The notes beneath the pieces are model-generated. The model was not told where the DNA came from, searched no databases, and was given only the letters and a program-made list of their open reading frames with translations. 64,000 nucleotides of DNA. Source: Serratia quinivorans (lineage in GTDB: Bacteria > Pseudomonadota > Gammaproteobacteria > Enterobacterales > Enterobacteriaceae). A program made the position numbers and the translations under genes. Shown piece after piece: positions 24,315 through 54,462 of this stretch. The stretch spans positions 496,001 to 560,000 of the forward strand of contig UGYN01000002.1 of NCBI GenBank assembly GCA_900457075.1, in the 5' to 3' direction. Within the stretch, counting starts at the first letter, position 1, and each line of letters opens with the position of its first letter.

Positions 24315-24316
24315 AA

Positions 24317-25648: not shown

Positions 25649-25702
25649 ACCAACTCCTTTGACTGCAGACGGCATTTTGGTGCCGCCCGGCAAGTACACA
25701 GC

Positions 25703-31089: not shown

Positions 31090-31161
31090 GCAATACTCTG
31101 CAAACTGGCAATGTTGGTGAAGTCTGTCAGTTGCCGAAAAGTACCAACAATTAATATCAAT

Positions 31162-31193
31162 GCCGGCCAGTTAACTCTGACCGGCTTTTTTTT
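31162..31193 (+). terminator. Rho-independent terminator after slaA
   Basis: GCCGG-C-CAG (31162-31170) pairs with CTG-A-CCGGC (31177-31185) with one mismatch, followed by eight T. Confidence 0.88.
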
Positions 31194-31273
31194 GTGATTA
31201 AAGGAGTATTTCTCTTTGGAGAGGCTTCAGAGCGGGGAACTAATAAGGTGGGTTGGCTGAGGAGAAATTTGAC

Positions 31274-31307
31274 AAAAAAATCCGGAAACAAGGATGTTTC
31301 CGGATTT
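31274..31307 (-). terminator. Rho-independent terminator of the capsule operon
   Basis: AAATCCGGAAACA (31278-31290) and TGTTTCCGGATTT (31295-31307) form a perfect 13-bp stem with an AGGA loop. On the minus strand it is followed by seven T. It marks the end of the transcript that starts near galU. Confidence 0.9.
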
Positions 31308-31361
31308 AATAGAGAAGGATTCAGTAAACCCTGTCCGAGCCTTTATTGGTCATCGAAGCTA

Positions 31362-34318: not shown

Positions 34319-35692
34319 TCATCTGCGCAGCAAGGCCAGTATTTCTTCTGTTTTTTGTTGCATTAATAGGGGATTAGCACGCGACTCAACATTTAACCGC
34401 ACAACAGGCTCAGTGTTGGAACTGCGCAAATTGAAACGCCAATCGGAAAACTCCAGACTAATGCCATCAGTGGTATCAAATGCCAGGGAGGTGGGTTGGT
34501 AACAATTCAACACTCTTTCAATTGCAGCCTGCGGATCCTGCAATTTGCTGTTGATTTCCCCCGAAGCAGGATATGCGGCCATACGGTCCTCAACCAATTG
34601 ACCCAATGTCTTATTCTTAATGCACAACAACTCAGCCACCAGTAGCCATGGGATCATGCCACTGTCGCAATAAGAGAACTCACGGAAGTAATGATGGGCG
34701 CTCATTTCCCCACCATAGACCGCATCTTCCAGACGCATACGCTCTTTTATAAAGGCGTGCCCCGTTTTCGACATTACCGGCACCCCACCCGCTTTCGTCA
34801 CTACGTCGATGGTGTTCCAGCTTAAACGCGGATCATGGATGATTTTTGCCCCATGTTCTTTTTCGAGGAACGCCTCAGCCAGCAAGCCAACGATATAATA
34901 TCCTTCGATAAAACCGCCGTGCTCGTCAAACAGGAAGCAGCGGTCAAAATCACCATCAAAAGCGATTCCCATATCCGCCTTATGCAGACGAACAGCCTGA
35001 GCGGTATCCTCACGACATTCAGGTAACAATGGATTAGGGATCCCATTGGGGAAGTTGCCATCCGGCTGATGATGGACCTTGATAAATTCAACAGGTACCT
35101 GAAGCTGCTTAAAGCGAGCTTCTATAGCATCGATCACGTGACCGGCAGCACCATTGCCAGAATTAACCACTAGCTTCAATGGCTTTAAATTAGCTGCATT
35201 TACATAACCCAGCAGGTGATCAACATAATCTTTCTCAATAGAGATCTTTTCATAGCTGCCGCGCTTATCTTTATCCACCGGTGCAAAACTGTTCTGCTCC
35301 GCCAATCGTTGAATATCGCGCAGGCCAGTATCACCACTGATGGGTTTCGCCTGGCTACGGACTAATTTCATGCCATTATAATTCATAGGATTATGGCTAG
35401 CAGTAACTTCGACACCACCATCAATACCTAAATGGAATGTGGCAAAATAGATTTCCTCTGTGCCACTCACACCAATGTCTAATACATCCACACCGGAATC
35501 ACGCAGCCCTTCGGCCAGAGAAAGTTTGAGCTCCTCGCTGGTCAGCCGGATGTCCCCGCCAACAACGACGCTTTTTGGCTTCAAGAATTCTCCATACGCG
35601 CGACCTATACGATAAGCTATATCGCTATTTAATTCTTCGCCCAGTTGTCCACGAATGTCGTATGCTTTGAAGCAGGTCAATGATTGTGACAT
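34319..35692 (-). CDS. manB: Phosphomannomutase
   Basis: A 457-residue alpha-D-phosphohexomutase converting mannose-6-phosphate to mannose-1-phosphate. The phosphoserine motif [11 protein letters not shown], Mg2+ loop DGDFDRCF and sugar-binding loop [10 protein letters not shown] are visible, as is the phosphate-binding RSSNTEP at the C-terminus. The frame extends 17 codons further, but ATG 35692 ([15 protein letters not shown]) has AAGGA upstream and fits CpsG. Works with ManC to make GDP-mannose. Confidence 0.94.
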
Positions 35693-35755
35693 GTTGAGAT
35701 CCTTACCCAAATATAAACCCGGCAGCGCTGTGCAAATGTCCACAGCGCTAAATTA

Positions 35756-37171
35756 TTAATTATGTTGAGCTGTATCGCCAATACGAACGATGTCGTCTTC
35801 ACCCAAATAGGCACCTGATTGAATTTCAATCAAATCCAGGGCTATTTTCCCCGGATTTTCAAGGGAGTGCTCAACACCCAACGGAATATAAATAGATTCA
35901 TTCTCGCTGATTAACTGTACTTTCCCGTTGGTATTGACTTTCGCCGTGCCAGAAACCACAACCCAGTGCTCTGAACGATGATGGTGCATTTGCAAAGACA
36001 GTTTCTCACCAGGTTTAACGGTAATACGACGAACCTGGAAGCGATCACCTTGTGCAATCGCATCGTGTTTACCCCATGGACGATAAACTTCGCGATGCTG
36101 TTTGCTTTCGGAGCGTTTCTGCTGTTTGAGCTGATTAACAATCTCCTTCACATCTTGAACTTTATCTTTATTAGCAATTAGAACTGCGTCTTTGGTTTCG
36201 ACTACCACCAGGTTATCTACCCCAACCACAGCCACTAACTTATGTTCAGCACGGATGTAGTTATTAGAGCAGTTATGTTCCAGAACGTCGCCGAAGGTAG
36301 AGTTACCCTTGACATCTTTCTCACTAATTTCCCACAGGGCTGACCATGAACCCACATCATTCCAACCGGCATCTAACGGCACAACAACGGCATCTGCCGT
36401 CTGTTCCATTACCGCATAGTCAACAGATTCATCAGGGCAGGCAATGAAGGCTTCACGATCGACACGAATAAAGTCCATATCCGGTGACAGGTGTGCCAAT
36501 GATTTTTTGCAGGCATCCAGAATATCAGGACGGAAACGCTCCAATTCATCTAAATAGCGGCTAGCTTTGAACAGGAACATACCGCTGTTCCATAGGTAAT
36601 CGCCACTATTCAGATACTGCTGAGCTGTTTCAAGGTTAGGTTTTTCTACAAAACGCGATACGCCACAGATACTGGAACCATCAACACTGGTGCCTTTTTG
36701 AATGTAGCCGTAACCCGTCTCTGGCCCTGTTGGCACAATACCGAACGTCGCTAGTTTGCCTGCTTCTGCATAAGGTATAGCCTGATTTACCGCCTCGCGG
36801 AAAATAGCCTCGTCCTGAATAACATGGTCCGCAGCCAATACCAGCATCAGAGGATCATCACCGTTAGAAACAGCCTGCAGGGCAGCAAGTGCAATTGCCG
36901 GAGCAGTATTACGTCCTACGGGTTCCAAAATAATATTATGCGACAAACGAGTAATCTGACGCAGTTGCTCTGCAACAATAAAGCGGTGTTCTTCATTACA
37001 GATCACAAGAGGATTAATAATGTCTAACCCTTTAAGACGCATCACCGTAGTTTGCAGCATTGAAAATTCATTGCACAAAGCTAAAAACTGTTTTGGGAAT
37101 AACTCACGGGACAGTGGCCATAGACGACTTCCCGTTCCCCCAGCCATGATAACAGGATAAAGGTTACTCAT
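35756..37171 (-). CDS. manC: Mannose-1-phosphate guanylyltransferase / mannose-6-phosphate isomerase
   Basis: A 471-residue type II bifunctional enzyme. The N-terminal nucleotidyltransferase (about 1-335) has [22 protein letters not shown] and RFVEKP. The C-terminal cupin-type isomerase (about 350-470) has [26 protein letters not shown] and [12 protein letters not shown]. Makes GDP-mannose for the capsule. ATG 37171 ([12 protein letters not shown]) preferred over a GTG four codons upstream. In reading order manC-manB-wcaJ equals the order in the E. coli colanic acid cluster. Confidence 0.94.
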
Positions 37172-37273
37172 TTTTACTCTCACTGATTAAATACAAATAG
37201 GAATTTAGTGTGAATTAACAATAGAACACAGAAATAAATAACATTAACTACAGATGATAATCCCCAGAGAATA

Positions 37274-38338
37274 TCATCTGTATAGATGGTAAGTATTTGA
37301 GATCATTTTTTCAGAAGTGAAATTGGCGCAATAAAAATCTATACAGGACGCTTTCATCGACGCCCAATCTTCTTTGCCGCGTGAGCTTAGTATATCCACA
37401 GCTTCATCGGCATTATTGGTCGTAAACAAGTAACCCGTAACCCCATCACTGACTACTTCTGGCAAAGAGCTACACCGGCTGGCAACCACAGGTAAACCAT
37501 AACTCTCTGCTTCAACCGCAACCAGACCAAATGACTCCCAGCGACTTGGCATTAACAAAACGTCAGCACGAGCAAAATAAGGGGCTATCTCAGAAGAGGA
37601 CAACCAGCCTTTATAATTAATTCTCGCATGCTGTGGTGGCTGTTCTTTTGAATGAACATTACCACCAATGACAGTTATTAAAAATTTATCGTCTAACTTT
37701 GAGGCAATATCCGTAACCAGATCAAAACCTTTTTGATAGTCAAATCGCCCCACGAATAATATATTAATTTTATCTGACGAATAAGGAGTAGCATACTCAG
37801 CGGTAGGCATCGGGGGTTCTACCCCATTATAAACGACAGTTAAATTAGCTGCATCCATCCCGACATCAAGAGCAACTTTCTTCTCATACTCACTAGTACA
37901 AATGATCACATCAGTATTTTTTTGCAAAAACTTTTCTATGCGAGTATAGATTTTCTTTTTCTTCTCTGAGGTATCCATCAAAAAGGAGAACGCGTGCGGG
38001 CAATAAATTATTTTTGGTTTGCACGTCATTCTTACCAGAGGAGTAAGCAATCGACAGATCACACCGGCAAAGGTACTATGAATATGGATGACTTGCGGTT
38101 TTTCTTTGCGAACCACTCGAATATAATTTATTGCCAATGAAATAAATGAAGGAATATTCCTTCCCGTACGGGAGAATTTCTTCAACTTACTTTCAGGGAA
38201 AACACCTATTTCTTCGCTCTGGCTATCCGGTAACAAACAATAAAAATCAAATTCATCATTTGGTTGTACGAGTTGCCTGATAACTGTCGCGACTCCACCT
38301 TTCACCGTTTCGGCAACGTGCAACACTTTTTTGTTCAT
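37274..38338 (-). CDS. Glycosyltransferase family 4
   Basis: A 354-residue GT-B glycosyltransferase. The N-terminus VLHVAETVKGGVATVIRQL is typical of capsule GT4 enzymes. The donor domain has FVGRFDYQKGFDLV and the E-x7-E motif ESFGLVAVEAESYG. It starts within the last codons of the upstream GT4 gene (4-nt overlap), so both are in one operon. It likely adds one capsule sugar, with mannose a reasonable guess given manBC next door. Confidence 0.83.
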   Translation of the reverse strand: MNKKVLHVAETVKGGVATVIRQLVQPNDEFDFYCLLPDSQSEEIGVFPESKLKKFSRTGRNIPSFISLAINYIRVVRKEKPQVIHIHSTFAGVICRLLTPLVRMTCKPKIIYCPHAFSFLMDTSEKKKKIYTRIEKFLQKNTDVIICTSEYEKKVALDVGMDAANLTVVYNGVEPPMPTAEYATPYSSDKINILFVGRFDYQKGFDLVTDIASKLDDKFLITVIGGNVHSKEQPPQHARINYKGWLSSSEIAPYFARADVLLMPSRWESFGLVAVEAESYGLPVVASRCSSLPEVVSDGVTGYLFTTNNADEAVDILSSRGKEDWASMKASCIDFYCANFTSEKMISNTYHLYR

Positions 38339-39393
38339 TGAGCAGCTCTCATAATGATTTTATTCAATTCTTCAGCAGAACGCATCCAATCGAAACGCCT
38401 AACATTCTCAAAACCTTTGGAGATCAAACTCTGGCGTAAAGCATCATCCTGGATAATTCGCTCCAGGGCGTGCTTCATTTCAGGGATGTTTTCCGGATCA
38501 AAGTACAGCACGCTATCCGCCAGCACTTCCGGCAGAGAGGCCTTATTAGATGAAACAACCGCACAACCGCAAGCCTGAGCCTCCAATGGCGGAATACCAA
38601 AGCCTTCATATAGTGAGGGAAAAACAAAGGCTCTGGCATTAGAATACAATTCAATCAGACTTTCATCGCTCACACGGCCAACAAATTCTATATTATCAGC
38701 CTGCATTGCATCTGGAGAAAAATTCACACCTGCAAAGTTTTTATTCGCAGATCCAATAATTTTTAACACAACCTCTTGGTTGTTTCTCATTTGCGTGAAT
38801 GCGCTAACCAGTCCATGGAAATTTTTATGATAATTTGGTGAAGAAACAGCCAATAGATAAGGTTTCTCTTCACTAGCCACCTGTGTTTCAGGTTTAAACT
38901 GGCTAGCAACAGCATTATTTATTACATGAATATTGTTTAATGGATAGCTAAATGCTGCATGAAGTTCATTTTTTGAGAACTCGCTAACCGTCAACAATGC
39001 CTTGCTTGATCGTAGCATCAAGGGAACAAAGTTATTATAGACAAAACGAAACTTCGCAGAATAACTTTGCGGATAACGTTTATAAATAACATCATGATGG
39101 GTAACGAATTTATTACTATAAAAAACAGGAGCCGTATTACATAGGTTTATCAACAAAGGGCTTCCCTGCTTACGTAAAAAAGAGGGTAACTCTAATTGCT
39201 CCCATAGATGGCCACTTTTATTACCTATAATCTTAACATTCAACTGAGAGGCAACTTCAGCGTGTATAATATTTCCAGGGGAGAGAAAAACGACATCATC
39301 CCTAATTTTACTTAATGCTAAGCTTATCTCTTGAGCAAATCGCTGAACGCCCGTTAAATCCTGCGTTAAAAATCGCGCATTGACATAAATCAT
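38335..39393 (-). CDS. Glycosyltransferase family 4 (mannosyltransferase-like)
   Basis: A 352-residue GT-B glycosyltransferase. The N-terminus MIYVNARFLTQDLTGVQRFA and the pattern EGFGIPPLEAQACG (E-x7-E) are typical of WbaD/mannosyltransferase-like GT4 members. The middle has YLLAVSSPNYHKNF at the domain junction. Specificity toward GDP-mannose is inferred from resemblance and context. Confidence 0.82.
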   Translation of the reverse strand: MIYVNARFLTQDLTGVQRFAQEISLALSKIRDDVVFLSPGNIIHAEVASQLNVKIIGNKSGHLWEQLELPSFLRKQGSPLLINLCNTAPVFYSNKFVTHHDVIYKRYPQSYSAKFRFVYNNFVPLMLRSSKALLTVSEFSKNELHAAFSYPLNNIHVINNAVASQFKPETQVASEEKPYLLAVSSPNYHKNFHGLVSAFTQMRNNQEVVLKIIGSANKNFAGVNFSPDAMQADNIEFVGRVSDESLIELYSNARAFVFPSLYEGFGIPPLEAQACGCAVVSSNKASLPEVLADSVLYFDPENIPEMKHALERIIQDDALRQSLISKGFENVRRFDWMRSAEELNKIIMRAAQ

Positions 39394-39426
39394 TATCTAC
39401 CCCATACCATTCAAATAATAACCGTG

Positions 39427-40762
39427 TCAATGTGATAGGTGAACACGACCAAGAGTCTTTTCAGATCTCTTGGCAACACTGCCCTCAGGTTTTCTGACCG
39501 ATAGTAATAATATCGATATTATTATCGGGAATATATACCCTGGATAGTTTGTTAATGGGTTGTTGTAAACGAAATTCATCGACAATGATATCATCCAATA
39601 CAAATATACACTCGGATTCAGCCCACGCCGAGTACGTTGGTAAAGAATGCCGAGAATTAACGACGCAACAATAACCAAGAAAATAATACCCAAATTCCCG
39701 TAATTAGAAAGCATATATATATACATACTATCTAAGGGGATAGAGTTAGTATTATCATCGCCGACTACGGCATTACCATTCACTGCATAACCCGCACCGA
39801 TAAAAGGAGAATAGCCGCTGTCAGCACGTACAGCCTCGATGTTCACCGTTCTAAGCAAAATGCTATTCTCTGCGTAGGCATTTTCCTTAGGGAATATCAT
39901 CTCATAAATACTGTAATTCGTTGTGGTGACGTAGAAAAACAACGACAAGACCATTGTCACCATTGTTACAATATTCAGACTAAAACGCTGCGAGAAGAAG
40001 CGTCGAGAGATCAGGAACATAATATACAGAAGCGCCATGATTATGGCTGTTTTAGACGTAGAAAACGCGATTCCAACGACAATAAGTAATATATATTTTT
40101 TCCGATGTTTTGCGCTTACGAAAGGCGCCAGTACTAACGCAAAGAAAAGATATTCACTTAAGCTGAATGGGCCGGTAAGCAGGCCGAAAGCACGAAGCTG
40201 TCCCTGAATTGTGCGTAACAACAGCCCATATTCTTTACCAAACTGCGTCAACTGCGGGCCTGGGTCAAAACCAATAACCGCGTACAACAACCCCGCTAGA
40301 CTGGATTCCGCAACAGCAAAGAGCGCATTTAATACGGCAAAAATTATATAGTACTTGATAACCTTTGTGACAATCTCAACCCGCTCATCATATTCAAACA
40401 GGAGCAAAAACGGCAGCAAAGAAAAATGAACCAAAGGTCAATAACTCTAAACGGAATTGCACTATGGCGCGGAAAAAGTCGAATCGGCCTGATAGCATAC
40501 TCAAAAGGATAAACACTAATGAAAATACAACCATCGACAAGAATAAAATCAATATACTCCGGCACTGAGCGGACACGCGTGGGTTTCGAGCAAAAAGCAG
40601 AATCAACACAAAGACGGGGACGGCCATGGCAAAGAAATCTTTATACAGCAAAAGTGCCCTGGTCGACATGTACGCAACGACAGTCACAATCCCATTCAAT
40701 GACAACAATGTCATATACATTAATAACAGGAAAACAACCAGCGATTTTGTCGATACTCTCAT
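39427..40762 (-). CDS. wzy: Capsule polymerase Wzy candidate (frameshifted as sequenced)
   Basis: A polytopic membrane protein, about ten hydrophobic segments, of the O-antigen/capsule polymerase type. The first part reads from ATG 40762 to a TGA at 40396-40394. The rest is in another frame from about 40430 to 39427. The joint is a five-T run on the minus strand (A run 40422-40426 on +): with four T the frame reads LLTFGSFSLLPFLLLFEYDERVE without a stop. Corrected length is 444 residues. Its start overlaps the stop of the upstream GT4 gene by one base. A sequence error is likely. Confidence 0.75.
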
Positions 40763-41901
40763 TATTGTCCTCTGTACACACTTTCGTAACTGCTGGCTAT
40801 TTTTTCACTCTCAAAAAACGAGCTCTGCAGCTTATTATTATTTTCTCGAACGGCCTTTACCGCCCCTGAGACAGAAAAATCTTTCAATTCGAAAATATTA
40901 TCATAAAAAGCAGCAATTTCGGTAACACCACCGCTGAAGGTAGTATACACAACCTTACCAGAGATAGCCGATTCTGCAACCGCGCGGCCGAAGGGTTCGT
41001 TCCAACGTGTTGGTAGCACTACCGCGTCAACCTGTGCCATAAAATCTTCAATTTTGATAAACCCGAGTAAATTAACCCCGGCCTCAACCGCCAGAGCCTT
41101 CATCTGCTCACCAGAAATATCGTTATTAAATCTACCAGCAGCATAAAACTCCACCTGAGGATCCTGAATACCCTGCCTGGCCAGCAGACAGAACTCATCA
41201 AACCCCTTATCCTCAGTCAAACGACCGACAAAGCCAATTCTGACCTTTTCACTCGTAGTTGCATTAAATGCTATAGCGGAAACTGGATTATAGATATAAG
41301 TATGCTGCGCATGGCAAGCAAACCCATTATCTTTGTGTAAAGCTGAAATATACTTACTGATGCCAACGAAAGCATCAACGTGCTGGCTGGCTTTTTTCTT
41401 GAAATATGAGGTAATGGTCACAGCTCGGCTTTTTACATCCATATTCATCCCATGTTTAAACAAAGTCCCATTAGGATGGAATAAGTAATAATCACGAGTC
41501 GTGTGAACAACTCGAGCACCAAGCTTTTTAGCCACTCGCCACACCGCAACAGAAAAACCACTCAGGTTGTTGGTGTGTACCACATCAGGAGAAAAATCTT
41601 TCAATTCAGCACGTACCAAACTCGCCATAAATGGATTGTATGAGTCAAGTAAATGCCAGACTGCTTTTTTCAGCTTGCCGGCCACCTGCTTTTGAAACGG
41701 CCAATACAGATTCTTTAATGGGAAGTACACAATGCTTACACCATTTAGTGAATCATGTTTAATTTCATCACCTTCATGAAGACAAAATACACGCACCTGG
41801 TGTCCAGCGCTCTGCAGGCTTTCAGCCAGCATTTGTACGGATACCTCTGCGCCACCAATTTTGTAGGGAGCATAAAGTGTATTTATTAAAGCAATCTTCA
41901 T
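40762..41901 (-). CDS. Glycosyltransferase family 4
   Basis: A 379-residue GT-B glycosyltransferase with N-terminal NTLYAPYKIGGAEVSVQMLAE and donor domain GFVGRLTEDKGFDEF and NEPFGRAVAESAISG (E-x7-E). It belongs to the capsule operon, upstream of the polymerase. Sugar specificity cannot be told. Confidence 0.83.
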   Translation of the reverse strand: MKIALINTLYAPYKIGGAEVSVQMLAESLQSAGHQVRVFCLHEGDEIKHDSLNGVSIVYFPLKNLYWPFQKQVAGKLKKAVWHLLDSYNPFMASLVRAELKDFSPDVVHTNNLSGFSVAVWRVAKKLGARVVHTTRDYYLFHPNGTLFKHGMNMDVKSRAVTITSYFKKKASQHVDAFVGISKYISALHKDNGFACHAQHTYIYNPVSAIAFNATTSEKVRIGFVGRLTEDKGFDEFCLLARQGIQDPQVEFYAAGRFNNDISGEQMKALAVEAGVNLLGFIKIEDFMAQVDAVVLPTRWNEPFGRAVAESAISGKVVYTTFSGGVTEIAAFYDNIFELKDFSVSGAVKAVRENNNKLQSSFFESEKIASSYESVYRGQ

Positions 41902-41931
41902 TTGTTGACCACCACAGGGAATTTTATAAAA

Positions 41932-42951
41932 TCAAAATTTATCTTTAATCAGAGTGATATCTGCACTCTCATAAGTCTCATAATTTTTATAGATTGCGTC
42001 AACGAATCCTACCCACTCCGGTGACAGCACTTTTTCATCAAGAACATAAGCAGTTATTTTTATTTTTTCATCATAGATTTTGATCAGGTTGTCATATAAC
42101 GAAGAATAAAAACCAGCTATTGAGGCTACATTCTCGCCCATTACGATGGGATAAACCTCAAATGGGAAGTCGAGACGTCTAACCTCAACATGCTGTCTAA
42201 TAGCATCGATTTTCTCTTCCCGCTCGCGTCGATGTGGAATATATACTAACTCGACGCCTTCTTTATTCAGTTTCAGGTCGTCGATCATTTTTAACGTTAG
42301 CTCTATATCATCGACTGAAGTCACCCCAGCTTCGTAAAGTGGCGTCCCTATAATGAACACCTTATTACCTCCCTGCGGCAGGGCAGCCAACTTCAGTTTG
42401 AAGTTCTGATAATTATGTTTAATTATTCTGTCTTTTTGAGCGATATTATTTTCAATGTTGTATACCGAGAAAAAAGTAATTTTCTCGCGCTCATTATTGG
42501 CCATACCCAAAGATTTAAGAAAAATAGACTTAGCGATATCTCTTACCGTAACGTTATTAGAACGTTTAATCCGGAGTGTCGCCGTACCGTCATCCAACAG
42601 GACAATATCTCTTTTTGGAAACTTGTTGGCCAACATCCAGAAAACTCTCGCGCGATACTCGCCAGCGATCAATGTCACATTCTCTTTTTTGGTGCTGACC
42701 TCTGACTTAACGCTCTTTAATTCCTTCCTAATATCGAGAACTTTACCTAAGTACCCTTCGACATCAATAGTTTTCAACGTCTTGTGCCTGATCATCTTCA
42801 ATAAATATACGATCTGGCCATGATTCAATGCTGAGTTGGCCGAACGTTTATTCACGATCAGTAAATCGAGAGTGATGTTCTTTACATCTAAATACTCGAT
42901 CAGGTTAAAAGCCTGCAAGGGTGACTCTATATACGCAATGTGCTTACTCAT
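41932..42951 (-). CDS. GT52-like / sialyltransferase-like glycosyltransferase (tentative)
   Basis: A 339-residue soluble protein. It starts with an IAYIESPLQAFNLIEYL segment and contains VLLDDGTAT (about residues 116-124) and VYIPHRRERE (about 233-242). A D/E-D-G-x-x-T loop followed later by an HP/HR motif is seen in bacterial sialyl- and polysialyltransferase families (GT52 and relatives). Because the operon also makes a CMP-activated nonulosonic acid, this is the best candidate for the enzyme that transfers that acid. I am unsure of the exact family. Confidence 0.6.
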   Translation of the reverse strand: MSKHIAYIESPLQAFNLIEYLDVKNITLDLLIVNKRSANSALNHGQIVYLLKMIRHKTLKTIDVEGYLGKVLDIRKELKSVKSEVSTKKENVTLIAGEYRARVFWMLANKFPKRDIVLLDDGTATLRIKRSNNVTVRDIAKSIFLKSLGMANNEREKITFFSVYNIENNIAQKDRIIKHNYQNFKLKLAALPQGGNKVFIIGTPLYEAGVTSVDDIELTLKMIDDLKLNKEGVELVYIPHRREREEKIDAIRQHVEVRRLDFPFEVYPIVMGENVASIAGFYSSLYDNLIKIYDEKIKITAYVLDEKVLSPEWVGFVDAIYKNYETYESADITLIKDKF

Positions 42952-42999
42952 ATTTCTGGTATCCGGTTATGGCTGCTGATGCAAACTTCCAAGCACTAC

Positions 43000-43506
43000 T
43001 CAGTGGAACTTACCTTCAGCCTTGAGCTGCAAATAATGCTCGACATTGCGCTGTGAGAATGACGTAGCCGGGTGTCCACCTGCGATAGCATAAGGTTGAA
43101 TATCTTTAACAACAACGCTACCGGCCTGAATAATTGCACCTTCACCTACGGTAACGCCGGGTAGGATAATCACATTAATACCCAACCAGACGTTATCTCC
43201 AATATGAGTATCTTTAATTACATAAGTATGATCATACGGAATAGCAGTACCGTTATGATTATGATTCTCTGTGATTATCACACAGCCAAAACCGCAGTGG
43301 AAATTATCACCAATGACAACACCACCCTTTCCTACAACGGTCAATCCATTAGAATTGAAGTTGTTGCCAAGAATTGTTTTATTATTAACAATGGTCAAAA
43401 AGTTAACTTTTGGTTCGCGACCACATTTCGCTGCAGTATTGATAACTTTTGAGCGATAACGTTGCTTACGTAAACTTCGCAGCCATCGTTTCAAACTTGC
43501 CATCAT
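43000..43506 (-). CDS. Hexapeptide-repeat acyltransferase (maltose/galactoside acetyltransferase type)
   Basis: A 168-residue left-handed beta-helix acyltransferase. Hexapeptide repeats (for example [44 protein letters not shown]) and an [10 protein letters not shown] loop containing the likely catalytic histidine are clear. The C-terminal AGGHPATSF is the usual cofactor-binding end. It probably O- or N-acetylates a capsule sugar. The start overlaps the wzx stop; ATG at 43503 is an alternative. Confidence 0.83.
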
Positions 43507-44741
43507 CTTTTCCTCTCAATGCTAATTTGACGCTTACCATAAACAAAGGTCGCCACGCAGGCAAAAAGACTGGATACAGCATAGACGAAACAGAAATACT
43601 CTACCTTTATCGTCGTCATGGTAATGATAAAAATACCAACTAAATGCGTAACCATTGAACCCATGGTTATAATTGAGATCATTTTATTTTTACGATAATA
43701 AAAAAGAGAATGCGTAAAAATATAATATATAGAAAGAAATGCTGTACCTGGCAACAAGATATTAAAGTAATAGATGGCTCGATTAAACTCAGCTTTAAAC
43801 AAGTAAGGGAAAGCAAATGGCATAATAAAGAAATAAATAATACAGGCGACAACAACCAAGCCTGTATAGCCATATTGAATTAGCTCAACACCTCTAAAAT
43901 CTTTTTCTTTCAACTTTCTATAAATGAATGGCTGAAATGCCTGATTAATTACACCGAAAAACAACATCACTATAGAAGTAAGCTGAAATGCCAGGCCGTA
44001 AACCCCGACTACTGCAGTGCTCATGTAATGTGCAATGAAAAATCGATCTATCGATGATTTTATCCAGTAACTGCCATGGTGTGGCAGCAGCGAAACGCCA
44101 TAACTGATAATTTCTTTATAACGTTTGCGAACCGGCTCAAGTACAACACGTTCACCTTTGATTCTCTTATAAACAAAAAACTCATACGCTAGTTGAATAC
44201 TGAAAAATGAAGCCGCGATGGCTATCAAACGCTGTCCTGGAGTAGCCGCAATCATTTCGAAAAGAGCGATCGTAAACAGAACGTTAAATGCAGAAAGTAG
44301 AAATTGTCCAATCGCAGCGACCTTGTAGGTCTGACTGATACGCAGATGCGACAGGTTAATAAAGTTAAGCGCTTGTGCCAGAGATGCCAGAACGACCAGG
44401 AAACCATCACTGAAACTTACTGATATATTCGCGACTAATGTAACAATATAGAATATTGCCACTAACAATACACTCGAAGCTATCGCCAGTGTGATGTTAT
44501 CTCTGCGGAACACCAGGGAACTCCCTTCCCCCTCCTGCATGTATTTGACCGGTAACAGACCCTGACCACTAAACGAAATAAAAATGATCAGCATCTGAAT
44601 AACGGATAAATATAGAGTTAGCGCGCCGTATCCCGACGCGCCAAGGTGTGCTGTTAAATAAGGCAGTATGATGAAGCCTATGACCTTGCCGAGAATATCC
44701 CCTATCGACAAGGCCGCAGCGCCCATAATGACTTTGCTCAT
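43503..44741 (-). CDS. wzx: Capsule repeat-unit flippase (Wzx-type)
   Basis: A 412-residue polytopic membrane protein of the Wzx/MATE superfamily with about 12-14 hydrophobic helices. The N-terminus [30 protein letters not shown] helix is characteristic. It should flip the undecaprenyl-linked capsule unit. Its ATG follows the stop of the NeuB fusion gene directly. This is the second flippase in the window; the two show no obvious close similarity. Confidence 0.83.
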
Positions 44742-46982
44742 TTACAGATACTTTTCCAGGAAGTTAAGTGCGTGCCAGAATCCCTCTCCCTGATTTTTAT
44801 GGCCTTGCCAGACTTCAGGAATGAACATCGCACCAGGAGCATACCGCTTCAGATCATCAGCAAGCTCGTCAAAGTTCACATCACCTTTACCAATCTGAAC
44901 GCCTTCTCCATCAACGCCCAAAGCATCAACAACGTGCATGTGTGCGGTGTAAGCACCAACCTTCTGGGTAAACTCATGAAGGTCCCATTGATAGTAGTTG
45001 CAGGCCATCATTGAGTGGGAAGTGTCGTAGCAAATGCGATAGTTATATTTTTCGCAGAATGCTTTAATCTCATCCGGATCAACAAACAGGTTATGGTAGC
45101 TCTGACCACCAAAGTGCCATGGGAATGGCGGCATGGTCTGGATAATAATTTCCACACCTTCCTGATTAATCTCACCTAATGTAGCACCAATGCGTTCATA
45201 CATTGCTCTGCGAGCTTCTTTAGGCAAGAAACCTGTGGTGTTGAATCCACCGGCGTTAACCACGATAACCGGACGTTCGGTTTTCGGGAAATATTGCTTA
45301 AGCGCACGGGTCACGTCGCAAACACGCTGCAATTGTGCGATCGAATGGGCCAGATATGCCGGGTCTTCGGTTGCCAGATCCAGAATATGGTCGTTGGCAA
45401 ACAGTTCTGGGCTATGTACGGCAAAACCAATATCTTCAGCACCGGTGAAGAACTCAGTCAGATCCAGTTCCATGTCCTGATAGCTCAGGTGGAACTCAAC
45501 AAAGTCCAGGTTGGATTTGTTTTTCAGCTTACTGTAGTCGTGGTAACGAACTGGAATACCGAAAGGACGGTCAAAGTCATAATCTTTGGCTTCAATCGCC
45601 ACATCGTTTAGATCTGACTCGTAGAAATAACCACCTGTTTCAAGATCTCGGTTGGCTTTTTTACCGACTAACTGTTCCATGTACAGAGGTTGTAAACCCT
45701 GGCCAGGACTTTTCACTTCAATCATATCGCGGGTGATGATTTCACCCTTTTTCAGATCACGATTGATGATCAAACTTTTTGCCAGCGTTTCGCGGTTGAT
45801 CATTTCACCCTGAGTGATGGCTCGCTCACCGGCCTGCCCCATGGATTCTTCAACTTCACGAATACGCACAACCATCTCTTTAAATTCTGGTGGCAACAGT
45901 GAAACCTTGTGGTCATTGCCTTCCATCGATTTATCAATGGTGAAATGCTTCTCGATAACGCGTGCACCCAGTGCAGCCACGGCAATGGGTATAGAGATCC
46001 CACGTTCATGGCCTGAATAGCCAACCAGGCAACCGGTCACTTGCTGCAGTCGTTTGATATAAGCCAGGTTCACATCTTTGAATGGCGTAGGGTAGGTTGA
46101 GTTGCAATGAAGGATAACAAACTCAGCGCCTTTGGATTTCAAGAATTCAACCGAGCTTTTGATTTCTGCTTCGCTGCACATACCGGTGGAACAAATCAAC
46201 GGCTTGCCGGTAGCAGCCAATGCACCCAGCATTTCGTGGTTGGTAAAGTCTGCAGAAGCAACTTTATAACCTTCCATACCGTACTCTTCCAAAATCTCAA
46301 GGCTCTTGAGATCCCATGGCGTACACAGCGGTGTCAGACCCTTGGTTTTGCAGTAGTCGAACACTTCGATAAGTTCTTCATTGGATAGCTGGAATTTTCT
46401 CAGCAAATCAATGGTATATTGCGCACCCAGATCGGCAGACTTATCTTTGTCGTTGCCGCCTTTATACAATGAACTCAGATCACGCATTTGGAATTTGACA
46501 CAATCCGCACCGGCATCAACAGCCAGATCTACCAAGTGCTTAGCCAATTTGATGTCGCCGTTATGGTTATTACCAATTTCCGCAATGATATAGCTCGGCG
46601 ATGTATCGGTGATAGTGTGCTTACCAATGGTCAGCCCTTTTTCACTTTGCAACGCAACAGCGACCAGACGGCGATAGTCATCAACCAATGGCAGAACATC
46701 AACACCGTTGGTGAATAATGCTTCAACTTCAGGACGAGGCGCATCAACTTTTTTATAGCGCACGTTCTGATTCATAACTTCAGACATTTCACGACTCAGG
46801 TCGAAATCACCACTGGTGATCCAACGACGGAAGTCGCCATCTGAGAAGGAACCGCATAACTTACCGTCTTCAGTTACAACGAAAATAATGCGTTTCTTGT
46901 TTGAGTTGATTTTTTCCAATGCTTTGATGATTGTTTCTGTTTCAAACACCAAAAAATCGGATATTTTCTTCTGAATTAACAT
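44742..46982 (-). CDS. neuB: Multidomain NeuB-type nonulosonate synthase: CBS pair - NeuB - SAF - xylose-isomerase-like barrel
   Basis: A 746-residue fusion. Residues about 1-115 look like a CBS pair (SFSDGDFRRWI; GVDVLPLVDDYRRLV). About 120-365 is the NeuB condensing domain (YIIAEIGNNHNGD, DCVKFQMR, PLICSTGM, GYSGHERG, EKHFT), which joins PEP to an N-acyl-mannosamine-like sugar. About 395-460 is the SAF/antifreeze-type domain (DLKKGEIITRDMI). About 475-746 is an AP-endonuclease-2/xylose-isomerase-like barrel (FVEFHLSY, DTSHSMMAC, HMHVVDA, GKGDVNFDEL, FIPEVWQGH). Ordinary NeuB is about 350 residues. No NeuC epimerase is present, so the extra barrel may help make or check the substrate. That last point is inference. 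Confidence 0.85.
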   Translation of the reverse strand: MLIQKKISDFLVFETETIIKALEKINSNKKRIIFVVTEDGKLCGSFSDGDFRRWITSGDFDLSREMSEVMNQNVRYKKVDAPRPEVEALFTNGVDVLPLVDDYRRLVAVALQSEKGLTIGKHTITDTSPSYIIAEIGNNHNGDIKLAKHLVDLAVDAGADCVKFQMRDLSSLYKGGNDKDKSADLGAQYTIDLLRKFQLSNEELIEVFDYCKTKGLTPLCTPWDLKSLEILEEYGMEGYKVASADFTNHEMLGALAATGKPLICSTGMCSEAEIKSSVEFLKSKGAEFVILHCNSTYPTPFKDVNLAYIKRLQQVTGCLVGYSGHERGISIPIAVAALGARVIEKHFTIDKSMEGNDHKVSLLPPEFKEMVVRIREVEESMGQAGERAITQGEMINRETLAKSLIINRDLKKGEIITRDMIEVKSPGQGLQPLYMEQLVGKKANRDLETGGYFYESDLNDVAIEAKDYDFDRPFGIPVRYHDYSKLKNKSNLDFVEFHLSYQDMELDLTEFFTGAEDIGFAVHSPELFANDHILDLATEDPAYLAHSIAQLQRVCDVTRALKQYFPKTERPVIVVNAGGFNTTGFLPKEARRAMYERIGATLGEINQEGVEIIIQTMPPFPWHFGGQSYHNLFVDPDEIKAFCEKYNYRICYDTSHSMMACNYYQWDLHEFTQKVGAYTAHMHVVDALGVDGEGVQIGKGDVNFDELADDLKRYAPGAMFIPEVWQGHKNQGEGFWHALNFLEKYL

Positions 46983-46985
46983 TAA

Positions 46986-47675
46986 TTATCTCCCATTCCA
47001 ATTCTGCAAAATCACTTCAACAACCGCCCAATCGAGCATGGTATCAATCTCAAAACTTTCTTCTTCTGACATCTTATGCGCAACAACCTTTCCGCCAAGA
47101 CGATTTCCGGTACTCAAAAGAATTTCGCTTTTAGTTACGTAGATTGAACCATTTTCTTTCAGCTTAATATTTTCCGGCTTAATATCTTGGCGCCGTGGAC
47201 GGTTTAAATAATCATAATAAGCTTTCGGATTATCTTCATTTTCCCAAAGGAAATGCCAAAACTCACAGACACTCAACAATGAATCGGCTTTTTTATCAAT
47301 AATCTTTTTGATCGCTACATCAATCGCATCGTCTTTACGAACTGGTGAGGTTGCCTGCAGCAGAACAGTAAATTCAGGTTTATAGTTCTCATGCTCCGCC
47401 AACCACTCTAAAGTGTGCAGCAAAGCAGGTTCAGTGGCCGCGGTATCTACTGCCAAATGAGCCGGGCGCATAAAGGGAACTTCAGCACCATACTCTCTTG
47501 CAACAGCAGCGATATCCTCACAGTCGGTTGTAACAATAACACGATCAATTTGTGATGAATTAAGGGCCTGCTCAATACTCCAGGCAATTAAAGGTTTACC
47601 TGCAATTTCTTTAATATTTTTCTTAGGGATCCCTTTCGACCCGCCCCTTGCCGGAATAATTGCAAGATTACTCAT
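46986..47675 (-). CDS. neuA: CMP-nonulosonate cytidylyltransferase (NeuA-type)
   Basis: A 229-residue nucleotidyltransferase of the CMP-NeuAc synthetase family. Motifs: [16 protein letters not shown] (CTP binding, residues 6-21), [27 protein letters not shown], and [10 protein letters not shown]. It activates the nine-carbon acid made by the next gene. Sialic, legionaminic, pseudaminic acid or KDN cannot be told apart by eye. The gene is first after the wza-wzb-wzc block. Confidence 0.86.
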
Positions 47676-47719
47676 CTGATATCTCCGAAATTGGAATCTA
47701 TAATTTATTGAACGGAACT

Positions 47720-47747
47720 AGAGGCTCCTAAAGAATAAGGAGCCTCT
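47720..47747 (-). promoter_or_regulatory. Stem-loop between wzc and biosynthesis genes (possible attenuator)
   Basis: AGAGGCTCCT (47720-47729) and AGGAGCCTCT (47738-47747) form a perfect 10-bp stem with an 8-nt loop, 22 nt after the wzc stop. No T run follows on the minus strand, so full termination is not expected. In group 1 capsule loci a stem-loop at this same place lowers expression of downstream genes relative to wza-wzb-wzc. Confidence 0.65.
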
Positions 47748-47768
47748 ATTTAACGTAAGGAAAGGGGT

Positions 47769-49916
47769 TTATTTATATTCGTACGCGTAGTAGCCGTAAG
47801 CGCTACCGGATTTATGTTCTACGGCATTAAGGATAATACCCTTAATTTCCATGCCATTTTGCTCAAAGCGGCGGATACTCACTTCAATCTCTTTCAGTGA
47901 GTTAACACCGTAACGCGCCACCAATAAAGTGGTCCCCACATTACGCGCCACAATTGCAGCATCTGTCACTGCCAATATTGGCGGAGTATCGACCAAGACG
48001 ATGTCATATTCTTTGCCCGCCCACTCCAGGAACTCCGACAAACGATTATGCATCAGCAGTTCTGAAGGATTTGGTGGAATTTTACCACGCGATATAAAGC
48101 TCAGATTCTCAATCGAAGTTTTTTTGATCGCCTGTTGCGCCGTTGCCTGTCCAGAAAGCACATCGGACAGACCTAAACCTAACTCACAATTCAACAATGA
48201 GTGGGCATAGCCTTTACGCATATCGGCATCAACGACCAAAATACGCTGGCCCGCCTGAGCAATAACAGCAGCAAGGTTAATACTCACAAACGTCTTACCA
48301 ATGCTTGGGCTGGCGCCCGAAATCATAAGAACGTTGTTTTTGGCTTCCAAAGATGCGAAATGCAAACTGGTACGCAAGCTTCTGACCGCTTCGATAGCCA
48401 GGTCCGCTGGGTTACCCACAGCAAGCAGCGTGTAGCTTTTAGTACTGCTGCGCTTACCGGACAGCATCGTTTCACGGTCGCTTTTCTGTTGCCATTCAGA
48501 TAACGGAATGCTGGCATAGACGTTGATACCCTGCTGTTCCAACTGCTCCGGGCTTTCGATGCCACGATGAAGCATGGTTTTCAGCAAGACAAATCCGGTA
48601 GAGAACAGACCGCCCAACAGGGTAACAATCAAGACGATAATTGTTTTTTGCGGTTTAACCGGACGTGGTTGAGTTACTGCCGGATCAACAATACGTACGT
48701 TGCCTACAGTACTTGCCTTGGTGATGCCCAGTTCTTGCTGCTTGTTCAGCAATTGCATGTAAATTTCTTGCCCAGCCTGAACATCACGGGTCAAGCGTAA
48801 AATTTCCTGCTGAGTTTTCGGCATGCCACTGACACGCTTGTTCAGCTTGTCCTTTTCCTGTTGTAACGTGACGCGTTTTTCCATTAGCGCACGATATGCA
48901 GGGTGCTCTTTAGTATAAAGCTTGGAGATCTCCGCTTCCTTGAAAGTCAGTTCATTTAACTGAGCTTCAACACCAACAATGGTATCCAATACCGATTTGG
49001 CCTCGAGTGACAAATCTACGGAGTCGTTGGCCTGGCGGAAACGATTGAGTTTCTCCTCAGCGCTGTCTAATGAACTACGTACCTCAGGCAATTGCTCTTT
49101 AAGGAAGTCCAGGCTTTTAGCTGCTTCCTCTGACTTACGCTCAACGTTTTGCAACAGGTAGTTTTTACTGATGCTATCCAGGATTTTACGTACCAGAATA
49201 GGATCGTCGCCAATCAAACTCAGGGCCAAAACGCCCGTATCCTTGCCCTTATCCTCAACGGTCAAGGCATCCAACAGATTGTTGGTGGCGACCAAACGCT
49301 GCAGTTTGGCCACTTCAAATACGGTGCCAGGCTCGGCGGAGATTTCGCTAACCAATAAAGCCACACCTTGGGCACTGGCTAATTCACCAACTTTCCCTTT
49401 GATAATTTCCGTGCCGTTTTTACTCAGCACATAATTTTTATCATCGATGACTTTCAGTTCAAGCTCAGTGTCGTCTGCGTTCGACGGAACGCTGAGACGG
49501 GACAAGGCAATGCGTCCTGGCTCAACGCCGGTCAAACGTGCCCAACCGCGCCCAAACACCGGGAAAAATTTCTGTTGAGTTACGGTGTCAAGATTCAAAT
49601 CGTCAACAGTTTTACCCGTTACCATACGTGATTTGATTAGCTCAATTTCCGTAGAGGAACCCGGTTGGCTGTTAGGTAACATCTGGGATAAATCATTGAC
49701 CAGTGAGTTACCGACGTTTTGCTCAACCTGGACCATCGCGTCTGCTTGGTATACTGGCGTCGCGAACAGTGAATAAATGATACCGGCGACAGAGAATAAC
49801 GCTGTCACACCGATAATCAGCCACCGGTGGTCCAGTAAAGTCCCAAGCAAGCGACTTAGGTCGATCTCGTCATTATTATTGGCCGTTGATAAGCCTGGTT
49901 TCGTATTATCAGTCAT
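47769..49916 (-). CDS. wzc: Tyrosine-protein kinase and capsule co-polymerase Wzc
   Basis: A 715-residue bacterial tyrosine kinase of the inner membrane. The N-terminal Wzz-type domain (about 15-110) contains the first membrane helix near 30-52. A long periplasmic coiled-coil region follows, and the second membrane helix is near 425-445. The cytoplasmic kinase domain has Walker A GASPSIGKTFVS, A' VVDADMRKG and Walker B DIVLVDTPP. The C-terminus has the autophosphorylated tyrosine cluster (Y707, Y709, Y710, Y712, Y714). With Wzb it cycles phosphorylation to drive high-molecular-weight capsule export through Wza. Confidence 0.96.
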   Translation of the reverse strand: MTDNTKPGLSTANNNDEIDLSRLLGTLLDHRWLIIGVTALFSVAGIIYSLFATPVYQADAMVQVEQNVGNSLVNDLSQMLPNSQPGSSTEIELIKSRMVTGKTVDDLNLDTVTQQKFFPVFGRGWARLTGVEPGRIALSRLSVPSNADDTELELKVIDDKNYVLSKNGTEIIKGKVGELASAQGVALLVSEISAEPGTVFEVAKLQRLVATNNLLDALTVEDKGKDTGVLALSLIGDDPILVRKILDSISKNYLLQNVERKSEEAAKSLDFLKEQLPEVRSSLDSAEEKLNRFRQANDSVDLSLEAKSVLDTIVGVEAQLNELTFKEAEISKLYTKEHPAYRALMEKRVTLQQEKDKLNKRVSGMPKTQQEILRLTRDVQAGQEIYMQLLNKQQELGITKASTVGNVRIVDPAVTQPRPVKPQKTIIVLIVTLLGGLFSTGFVLLKTMLHRGIESPEQLEQQGINVYASIPLSEWQQKSDRETMLSGKRSSTKSYTLLAVGNPADLAIEAVRSLRTSLHFASLEAKNNVLMISGASPSIGKTFVSINLAAVIAQAGQRILVVDADMRKGYAHSLLNCELGLGLSDVLSGQATAQQAIKKTSIENLSFISRGKIPPNPSELLMHNRLSEFLEWAGKEYDIVLVDTPPILAVTDAAIVARNVGTTLLVARYGVNSLKEIEVSIRRFEQNGMEIKGIILNAVEHKSGSAYGYYAYEYK

Positions 49917-51963: not shown

Positions 51964-52857
51964 CTAGAGTGACAATTTTTCTGCCCACTCGCGAAATGCC
52001 TTGCCTTGGGTAGGGTGACGCAGGCCATAAGTCACAAACGCACGCAGGTAACCCATCTTCTCCCCGCAGTTGAACGATTCCCCGACCAACTCTGTCGCTT
52101 CAACCGGTTTGTGCTTCAACAACTCGGCAATGGCATCTGTCAGTTGAATACGTCCCCATACGCCCGGCTCGGTTTTTTCTAAAATCGGCCAAATATCGGC
52201 AGAGAGAACATAGCGCCCTACAGCAGAATAATTAGACTTCAACGGAACTTCATGGCCCGGTTTTTCTATGATCGAAGTCATACGCGAGCTTTCACCAGGC
52301 TGCAGCTTGTTGGCTTCACACTCAACCACCGAGTAGTCGTGTAAAACATGCTCATCCGCAGCCTGAACCAGCACCTGGCTCAAACCCGTCTGTTCAAAGC
52401 GACTAATCATATGCGGCAGGTTGTCTTTCTTCAGGTCGGCTTTGGCGTCGTCAAGCAAGACATCCGGCAACAGAACTACAAAAGGTGAGTCCCCTACCAG
52501 CGGCTTGGCACAAAGCACCGCATGCCCCAAGCCTTTTGGCTGCCCCTGACGAATATGCATTAGCGTTACGCCTTTCGGTGTAATAGATTGCACTTCATCG
52601 AGCAATTGGCGCTTAACGCGCGCTTCAAGCATCGCCTCCAACTCGAAGGAGGTATCAAAATGGTTTTCGATTGCATTCTTGGATGAATGCGTCACCAGGA
52701 TGATCTCTTTGATCCCCGCAGCAACGCACTCATTGACAATGTATTGAATCAGCGGCTTATCAACGATCGGCAACATTTCCTTTGGAATAGCCTTGGTTGC
52801 AGGCAGCATACGCATACCCAGACCTGCAACGGGAATGACAGCTTTTAACTTGGTCAT
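51964..52857 (-). CDS. galF: GalF, UTP-glucose-1-phosphate uridylyltransferase paralogue
   Basis: A 297-residue nucleotidyltransferase, paralogous to the gene just upstream. It has [25 protein letters not shown] N-terminus, where the GalU position GLGTR reads GLGMR, and [14 protein letters not shown] in place of the GalU form [10 protein letters not shown]. These are GalF-type differences. GalF is thought to have low activity and to modulate GalU. The pair at the head of the capsule operon should set UDP-glucose supply. Confidence 0.9.
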
Positions 52858-52902
52858 GGTAATCCTCTTGATATCTTATGATCGTCTTTTCAGCCGTAAC
52901 TC

Positions 52903-53817
52903 TTACTTGCTGTTCAGCGTTTGTTTTAGCCACTGGGTAAAATCTTCGCCTTCGGAGGCGTGGCGCAGTCCGTATTGTACGAATGCCTTCATATAACCCA
53001 ACTTATCGCCGCAGTCATGCGATTTTCCGCTCATATGAAAAGCTTCTACGGTTTCCTGCCCCATCAATGCAGCAATGGCATCAGTCAACTGGATTTCATC
53101 GCCGGCACCCGGTAAGGTTTTTTCCAGCAGCGGCCAAATATCCGCAGACAAAACATAACGGCCAACCACCGCCAGATTTGAAGGTGCATCTTCCAGGGCC
53201 GGTTTTTCCACCACGGCGGTCATCGGGATACTCTCACCTGCTGACAACGCCGCACCACCACAATCAACGACGCCGTATTTCGAAACATCCTGTTCCGGTA
53301 CCGGTTCCACCATGATCTGGCTAAAACCGGTATCAGTGAAACGTTGAATCATTTTAGCCAGGTTTTCTTTACGCAGATCGGCAGTTGAGTCATCCAGCAA
53401 CACATCGGGTAACAACACCACAAAAGGATCATCGCCGACCATTGGTTTAGCGCACAGAACCGCGTGACCCAGACCTTTAGCTTGCCCCTGGCGTACTTGC
53501 ATTACTGTCACATCTGCAGGGCAAATACTCTGCACTTCTTCCAGCAACTGGCGTTTGACCCGTGATTCCAGTACCGCTTCAAGCTCAAAAGAGGTATCGA
53601 AGTGGTTCTCAATCGCATTTTTAGAAGAGTGAGTTACCAGAACAATATCTTTAATCCCAGCAGCAACACATTCATTAACGATGTATTGGATCAGTGGCTT
53701 ATCGACCACGGGCAACATTTCTTTAGGGATGGCTTTTGTCGCCGGCAACATACGGGTTCCCAGACCTGCTACGGGAATGACAGCCTTCAATCTTTTTTGC
53801 ATGTTTTTCATCCACAT
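52903..53817 (-). CDS. galU: UTP-glucose-1-phosphate uridylyltransferase GalU
   Basis: A 304-residue enzyme that makes UDP-glucose from UTP and glucose-1-phosphate. The active-site segment [28 protein letters not shown] and [12 protein letters not shown] are GalU-type. It is the first gene of the minus-strand capsule transcript, about 60 nt after the JUMPstart element. The start could be 53817, 53811 or 53802 ([15 protein letters not shown]); no ribosome binding site decides it. Confidence 0.92.
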
Positions 53818-53878
53818 TCATTAATTATTACATAGCTGAACCAAGTCGCTCATGAAGTCGGAAACGGGATAATTGAGA

Positions 53879-53916
53879 CACGCTACCGCCCTTGGCTTTC
53901 AGCTACCAATGTACTG
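53879..53916 (-). promoter_or_regulatory. JUMPstart element with ops (RfaH recruitment)
   Basis: On the minus strand this reads CAGTACATTGGTAGCTGAAA then GCCAAGGGCGGTAGCGTG, an almost full match to the JUMPstart consensus. The ops core GGCGGTAG is at 53883-53890. RfaH binds paused RNA polymerase at ops and lets it read long surface-polysaccharide operons through terminators. Confidence 0.93.
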
Positions 53917-53957
53917 TCATCGTTCTCTATAGGCGACCAGGTTCAGTCACGTTTTAA

Positions 53958-53987
53958 TGTATATTGAGGGACGTACTCTTTTGTTAA
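53958..53987 (-). promoter_or_regulatory. Candidate capsule operon promoter
   Basis: On the minus strand TTAACA (53982-53987) and TATACA (53958-53963) are spaced by 18 nt, about 42 nt upstream of JUMPstart. Position is right for an ops-containing leader; strength and use are unproven. Confidence 0.4.
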
Positions 53988-54462
53988 GCGATAGTTAGAT
54001 CACAAATAAAACAAAATAAATACGTCCTTATAACCAAACGATGATACTTGTAAATGTTTATATGGCTAAGATTCTTATACTATTGCCTTATCGATACAAG
54101 CCTAAGATACCTATTGGGTACCCTTTTCAGAATAAGACTACCCACAGGGGTAGACTCAGCAAAGTGTAGCAGTCAATGAAATCCATAACGGTTTGATTTT
54201 TAAAAATTATATTTACGCTGCTTTTATCAACAAACGTCTACCCCGATATTCCGGAAACTGACTTCCTTTTCAGAAAATCCCCCATTTCTCCTGGTGTCAC
54301 ATTCTGATCTCCTCCTGCATGGATGGATTTTTATGCATTCTTTTTGCTTGGTTTTTTCATTTCACAGGCAACTCCCCCAGTTTTAATGTTGAATTTTCCT
54401 GGCCCAGCACCCATCATTCGTTTGCGGCATAAGCCGTCGAACTTATAGGTGAAATTGGGCGT
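53988..54462. other. Intergenic region between capsule promoter and yegH (no gene seen)
   Basis: About 475 bp of AT-rich, non-coding sequence between two divergent transcripts. It should hold the yegH promoter; AGGTGA lies 11-16 bases before the yegH ATG. Binding sites for capsule regulators would be expected here, but I could not identify one. Confidence 0.45.

Follow-up and report, generated by a model that had tools for sequence, protein, structure and literature searches.

The window analysed here, a 64,000-nucleotide stretch of the Serratia quinivorans genome (contig UGYN01000002.1), contains a capsule operon with a neuB-type gene, whose product is a 746-residue fusion of a CBS part, a NeuB synthase, a SAF domain and a xylose-isomerase-like barrel. 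We see a roughly even chance that this fusion is the synthase for KDN (ketodeoxynonulosonic acid) of a Serratia Wzx/Wzy-type capsule, with the barrel making or handing over a mannose-type acceptor. Taken by itself, KDN is the likely product in view of the neuB genetics and sugar analysis published for Serratia marcescens (Anderson et al., 2022, PMC9000132). What the present analysis establishes is the domain architecture, the intact synthase residues, a changed N-acetyl pocket, a Gln within the metal-type site of the barrel, a two-gene unit that the fusion often forms with a NeuA-like cytidine monophosphate (CMP) transferase, and the absence of NeuC.

Architecture of the fusion protein

The gene and its parts are arranged as follows:

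44742..46982, minus strand: neuB-type fusion gene, 746 aa, CBS + NeuB + SAF + xylose-isomerase-like barrel (open reading frame (ORF), Pfam, model)
46641..46982, minus strand: CBS part, residues about 1-114 (Pfam CBS 12-55, weak second repeat, strands in the model)
45813..46640, minus strand: NeuB synthase domain (residues about 115-390) with intact catalytic residues; R167 sets the family apart from the controls (Pfam, alignments)
45600..45812, minus strand: SAF (antifreeze-like) domain, residues about 391-461, S425 where Neisseria has R314 (Pfam, alignments)
44745..45599, minus strand: xylose-isomerase-like TIM barrel (residues 462-746), in which Q615, D653, H683 and E723 would form a metal-type site (Pfam, fold, alignment)

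Several stops interrupt frame 1 of the plus strand across 44742-46982, and the coding strand is the minus strand. The four-part order had been proposed in a preliminary description made from the sequence alone, and it was borne out by the Pfam matches, by a confident AlphaFold model and by its recurrence in relatives. All Pfam matches on the 746 residues exceed their cut-offs (CBS, 12-55; NeuB, 150-384, 2.6e-84; SAF, 403-458; AP_endonuc_2, 491-744, 2.5e-26). With 282.9 bits against a cut-off of 22.1 for NeuB and 43 against 21 for SAF the protein belongs to the NeuB family (PF03102), and both the Pfam cut-off and the fold place its C-terminal part in PF01261 (xylose-isomerase-like TIM barrel). 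AlphaFold modelled the full-length fusion confidently (pLDDT 90.5, pTM 0.75) and the barrel alone very confidently (pLDDT 94.4). In a comparison with five other Serratia copies, two of them from the same genome, synonymous codon changes outnumber other changes in all four parts. This excess and the recurrence of the architecture in relatives down to about 50% identity argue that the fusion did not arise by chance.

Synthase domain and acceptor pocket

The fusion keeps all ten residues that we take to be the phosphoenolpyruvate (PEP), metal and catalytic positions of Neisseria NeuB (E25, K53, T110, K129, S132, S154, Y186, H215, H236 and D247), while N74 of the Neisseria enzyme falls in an alignment gap. 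The same ten letters are found in eight ordinary enzymes chosen as controls from plasmid hits (six NeuB or NeuB-family proteins and two PseI), save for a Ser at the T110 position in three of them.

The acceptor pocket is changed at four places: R314 of Neisseria is replaced by S425, F288 by T399, E134 by D245 and H57 by R167. Among 81 aligned fusions S425 is kept in 80, and R167 and D245 in every one. The R314 position is Arg and the F288 position Phe or Tyr in all eight controls; D245 is not diagnostic, as one control also has Asp. R314 of the Neisseria SAF domain presumably recognises the N-acetyl group (4ipi and 4ipj are R314 mutants). Its loss, read from the alignment, would fit an acceptor without an acetamido group, and R167 may bind a hydroxyl or a phosphate. 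Compared with N-acetylneuraminate synthases, the fusion thus has Ser425 in place of the SAF-domain Arg314, and it stays below the TIGR03569 cut-off for that enzyme (327 against 399.65 bits).

The C-terminal barrel

The fold of the barrel is that of a ketose 3-epimerase. These enzymes bind their metal at the strand ends, and two active-site Glu flank it. Gln615 of the fusion aligns with a Glu of MJ1311 and is Gln in 81 of 81 fusions, so the pair of Glu typical of ketose 3-epimerases is incomplete. The preliminary description had read Asp/His/Glu ligand patterns into the motifs DTSHSMM, HMHVVDA and FIPEVWQGH, which are residues 653-659, 681-687 and 720-728 of the fusion, and this holds in part: Asp, His and Glu are kept at strand ends and metal-type ligands are mostly present (D653 and H656 in 81/81, H683 and E723 in 80/81), but the first Glu is a Gln. 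With Gln fixed at one of the two metal-site Glu positions, the barrel is unlikely to be a simple two-base epimerase. Furthermore, 8 of the 13 residues of QTMPPFPWHFGGQ as well as T616 are identical in all 81 fusions.

Absence of NeuC and evidence for KDN

The lack of a NeuC-type epimerase, first noted for the operon, was confirmed for the whole source genome. It has one NeuB, and its one Epimerase_2 protein is WecB (571.4 bits, cut-off 210.15), on which the NeuC model reaches 97.3 against a cut-off of 235.9; a PF07221 epimerase was not found in this genome either. Across 50 fusion-bearing genomes, many of them drafts (five from Serratia, the others from 45 of the 80 named loci described below), NeuC exceeds the cut-off in three (L008, L039 and L053), whereas the other 47 have sub-cut-off matches only (31) or none (16).

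The earlier guess that the acid might be KDN gains strong support from S. marcescens, where a neuB that agrees with the fusion gene in length, location and domains is needed for a mainly-KDN capsule. In KL1 and KL2 of this species neuA and neuB open the variable region of the capsule locus, and in strain UMH9 (KL1) primers and deletions place both genes between wzc and wzx (PMC9000132). The UMH9 neuB is an ORF of 2241 bp with an extra COG1082 sugar isomerase/epimerase domain; its deletion lowered sialic acid four-fold, with capsule not above that of the variable-region-deleted strain, and neuB in trans brought the sialic acid back (assayed on cells from defined medium). S. marcescens needs the locus for KDN as well as for N-acetylneuraminic acid (Neu5Ac), the two being present at about 20:1, and the KDN of UMH9 is gone without the capsule variable region (PMC9000132). 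A capsule-null KL2 neuB mutant was employed in later work (PMC12077157). The examined parts of these two papers hold no test of the extra domain.

Distribution and the two-gene unit

A protein search yielded 7575 relatives among 7998 scored candidates. The 120 relatives listed all carry NeuB and barrel labels in Pfam, and 118 of them are 745-752 aa long. Of 177 places confirmed in named genomes, 80 were kept as loci. They include Serratia, Pseudomonas, Vibrio, Nitrosomonas, rhizobia, sphingomonads and many cyanobacteria, furthermore Thalassobacillus, Sediminibacterium, actinobacteria, Verrucomicrobia, Chloroflexi and Desulfobacterota, with phyla taken from the record titles and several loci being metagenome-assembled genomes (MAGs). 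A NeuA-like CMP-transferase lies in the flanks (up to 10 kb) of 58 of the 80 loci, in 37 of them directly upstream of the fusion; in 28 of the 31 same-strand pairs among these 37 the gap to the fusion is 19 bp or less. The ORF caller used for the neighbourhoods selects frames by length and drops genes where loci are rich in G+C; in 4 of the 80 it missed the fusion itself.

Patchy occurrence is seen in the genus (5 of 30 genomes), the order (2 of 394) and the phylum (5 of 398), the last two counts at E 1e-100 and the genome of the window included in each. Copies with 94-99% identity were found in four other genomes of the genus, and the protein of S. proteamaculans UME734 (L003) is 99% identical. 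No DNA match was obtained in E. coli genomes, and three phage records matched in the NeuB part only. Among 102 matching plasmid records one place, in Ensifer canadensis, covers at least 80% of the fusion, with a CMP-transferase just upstream.

Most of the 22 shorter relatives that we inspected end inside a domain. P0290 and P0339 consist of the synthase part alone and stop shortly behind SAF, whereas P0189 is an entire barrel by itself; each of the three may be a genuine separate protein or stem from a split gene. The idea that all barrel-less relatives are truncations was rejected, since P0290 and P0339 are possibly real synthase-only proteins. The close relatives of the barrel, 120 listed of 560, look like fusion pieces by name and domains, and four of them were aligned (P0125, P0138, P0163 and P0189). 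In Klebsiella, some copies stop early or lack their beginning (P0243 and P0125, 608 and 353 aa), which suggests broken capsule genes.

Several lineages have additional genes beside the fusion. In Nitrosomonas and a MAG of an ammonia-oxidizing bacterium (L010-L014, L016) genes for a short-chain dehydrogenase/reductase (SDR), a Gfo/Idh/MocA protein and the CMP-transferase are oriented divergently to the fusion; in L010-L013 a member of an unknown protein family comes next (467 aa in L012). In marine Synechococcus and Vulcanococcus (L064, L067, L068, L072, L075, L076) the fusion stands between DUF6716 glycosyltransferases and sulfotransferases, which suggests a sulfated, ulosonic-acid-rich polymer. 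In view of these SDR, Gfo/Idh/MocA, DUF6716 and sulfotransferase genes the acid product may be modified in some lineages.

Proposed mechanism and alternatives

In the scheme that we propose, the NeuB domain, with SAF as a lid, would condense PEP with a mannose-configured six-carbon aldose, the adjoining NeuA would convert the product to CMP-KDN, and a transferase would then add KDN to the capsule. As the acceptor would not be N-acetylated, NeuC would be unnecessary. The barrel would most likely act on the acceptor side in the same chain, as a metal-dependent single-base aldose-ketose isomerase turning a fructose-type ketose into a mannose-type aldose, which the condensation would draw off. As an add-on, the CBS part would probably tune activity via nucleotide binding.

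A number of observations speak against this reading. The invariant Gln at the first metal-site Glu could mean that the barrel is non-catalytic. The ManC of the operon is of the type with a mannose-6-phosphate isomerase part, so that an extra isomerase is not obviously needed, and no phosphatase was found in the two-gene unit. In the synthase, N184 of Neisseria, presumably a PEP-site contact, is replaced by Ser295 (80 Ser and 1 Ala in the 81 fusions); a Ser is also present at this position in PseI 8h2c and Leptospira 6ncs. The parts of the fusion may stand alone, as P0290, P0339 and P0189 indicate, and 22 of the 80 loci have no CMP-transferase nearby; some of these are short contigs, and L028, L052 and L063, with 10 kb on each side, miss it at the threshold used. 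The literature yielded no enzyme assay for any member of the family. The tie to the UMH9 neuB rests on length, gene order and domain content, and the published strains also make some Neu5Ac, which implies that the pocket is not exclusive (PMC9000132).

The most serious alternative, although in our opinion rather unlikely, is a KDN synthase with a catalytically dead barrel, which would serve as a sugar-binding or structural/regulatory module holding the acceptor or the oligomer. The Gln found in 81 of 81 fusions, the mannose phosphates already provided by ManC and the possible synthase-only relatives P0290 and P0339 would all agree with it, but the conservation of D653, H656, H683 and E723, of 8 of the 13 residues of QTMPPFPWHFGGQ and of T616 exceeds what a scaffold would seem to need.

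It is improbable that the synthase uses mannose-6-phosphate to give KDN-9-phosphate and that an endonuclease IV-like barrel removes the phosphate before NeuA acts. The three-metal site of endonuclease IV needs a Glu at the place of Gln615 (via the MJ1311 alignment) and, it seems, more His than can be placed; moreover, housekeeping phosphatases could remove the phosphate. We give similarly little credence to a barrel that epimerises C2 of gluco-sugars (glucose to mannose, N-acetylglucosamine to N-acetylmannosamine (ManNAc)). Such an enzyme would yield KDN and minor Neu5Ac without NeuC, in line with the locus dependence of both acids in S. marcescens at about 20:1 and with a source genome devoid of NeuC and PF07221 epimerases, but two-base epimerisation is hard to reconcile with Gln615, and ManNAc could also leak from the UDP-ManNAc made by WecB. 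An ordinary synthase of Neu5Ac, legionaminic or pseudaminic acid with decorative extra domains is very improbable: the NeuB Pfam match, the sub-cut-off matches to TIGR03569 and PseI and an adjoining NeuA most like PseF (below the cut-off) would allow it, but the N-acetyl Arg is replaced, the genome has no NeuC, no legionaminic or pseudaminic acid enzymes are among the operon proteins scanned, and KDN has been published for the S. marcescens type.

The CBS part

Only the first CBS repeat reaches the Pfam cut-off, and the second is a weak match (residues 12-108 to GutQ/KpsF and 30-113 to MJ0100 of the PDB, which we take to be a CBS protein). In one genus (three genomes: L109, L110 and L111) the NeuB-SAF-barrel protein is without CBS and the barrel is kept. 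At the pocket and barrel positions compared, these synthases differ at T399 only, where they have Asn, a letter shared by 24 of the 81 fusions. A CBS part with 31.6% identity is located in the gene adjoining them (L109:5903-7402, L110:4892-6409, L111:8707-10218); in L109 and L111, the two of the three that were scanned, this neighbour is a GHMP-type kinase. This position in a neighbouring gene indicates that the CBS part is movable and, as far as the sequences suggest, probably regulatory. A CMP-transferase was found beside it in L111 only, and L111 also holds a separate AP_endonuc_2 barrel and two short-chain dehydrogenases.

Capsule operon and surrounding window

The following genes of the window accompany the fusion:

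46986..47675, minus strand: neuA-type CMP-sugar synthetase, separated from the fusion downstream by 3 bp (ORF, profile match to CTP_transf_3)
43503..44741, minus strand: Wzx-type flippase, first base directly after the fusion stop codon (Pfam Polysacc_synt)
47769..49916, minus strand: wzc-type tyrosine kinase of this capsule operon, upstream of the fusion (ORF; name presumed from the sequence; order as in S. marcescens KL1)
35756..37183, minus strand: manC, mannose-1-phosphate guanylyltransferase/mannose-6-phosphate isomerase (TIGR01479, above cut-off)
34319..35743, minus strand: cpsG/manB phosphomannomutase (NF011943, above cut-off)

The CMP-sugar synthetase and the mannose-phosphate enzymes of the preliminary description were therefore recovered as a NeuA-type protein, ManC and CpsG. 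The best match of the NeuA is PseF, below the PseF cut-off. Downstream of the fusion, ManC and CpsG are joined by WcaJ and three GT4-type glycosyltransferases. A 339-aa ORF (41932-42951, minus strand), which has no Pfam match above cut-off, could be a candidate KDN transferase; its S. proteamaculans counterpart has only a weak match (E 2e-4) to a 300-aa ORF in L005. A Wzy-type ORF is split (39427-40762, minus strand) into overlapping frames at 39427-40434 and 40394-40762. Combined, the two frames correspond at 99-100% to a single 444-aa ORF in S. proteamaculans L003, and the split is a frameshift or an assembly error. In 2-kb steps the G+C content is 0.39-0.46 at 36000-47999 against 0.49-0.51 at 28000-31999 and 52000-55999.

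Two overlapping ORFs at 28131-31089 (plus strand), presumably S-layer-like by their sequence, lie beside what we take to be an ABC-type secretion set (22938-27469); a frameshift between them is possible. An S-layer locus likewise adjoins the capsule locus of S. marcescens, which is also low in G+C (47% vs 60%; PMC9000132).

Implications and comparison with known systems

Tentatively, the fusions might form a class of self-sufficient bacterial KDN synthases present in many phyla. One chain would then hold both the synthase and the isomerase that makes its acceptor, and fusion and NeuA would suffice to lead from a central ketose to CMP-KDN; Arg167/Ser425 together with the Gln-Asp-His-Glu barrel would then be a KDN signature. 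Present annotation cannot tell KDN from Neu5Ac production. Should the fusion prove to be a KDN synthase of bacteria in general, KDN production could be predicted from genome sequences, from cyanobacteria through to enterics. It would also account for sialylated capsules in the absence of NeuC and provide an example of an acceptor-supplying enzyme joined to a synthase that condenses PEP.

For S. marcescens, a gene of this type and the part that it plays in a KDN capsule have already been published, whereas the breadth of the fusion, the pocket signature, the barrel Gln, the NeuC survey and the movable CBS part were not met in our open-literature searches, which for the architecture returned unrelated papers or papers on KDN and sialyltransferases only. 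3-Deoxy-pentulosonic acid, as in Klebsiella K38, was considered as a product; nothing useful was found, and it was dropped after the S. marcescens paper. For Klebsiella K4, the first bacterial KDN capsule, no tie was found to the fusion-bearing Klebsiella proteins P0006 and P0011.

NeuB/SiaC of Neisseria meningitidis (1xuu, 4ipi, 4ipj), the top Foldseek hits, share the NeuB-SAF fold and the ten catalytic positions with the fusion, but identity is about 30%, R314 and F288 are replaced in the fusion, and the Neisseria protein is without CBS and barrel. This enzyme uses NeuC-derived ManNAc, and its SAF domain is a lid. MJ1311 and other ketose 3-epimerases (3wqo, 5h1w, psicose/tagatose) are 15-22% identical to the barrel, which differs by the Gln in place of the first Glu and by the fused synthase. 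KDN-9-phosphate synthases (human NANS and the enzyme of Bacteroides thetaiotaomicron), which we compared by description only, make a KDN-type acid from mannose-6-phosphate; they have a separate phosphatase step and neither barrel nor CBS. The NeuB of S. marcescens KL1/KL2 is from another species and the word CBS is absent from the text of PMC9000132, but it shares with the fusion the 2241 bp (stated for UMH9, KL1), the wzc-neuA-neuB-wzx order and the combination of NeuB with a COG1082 domain.
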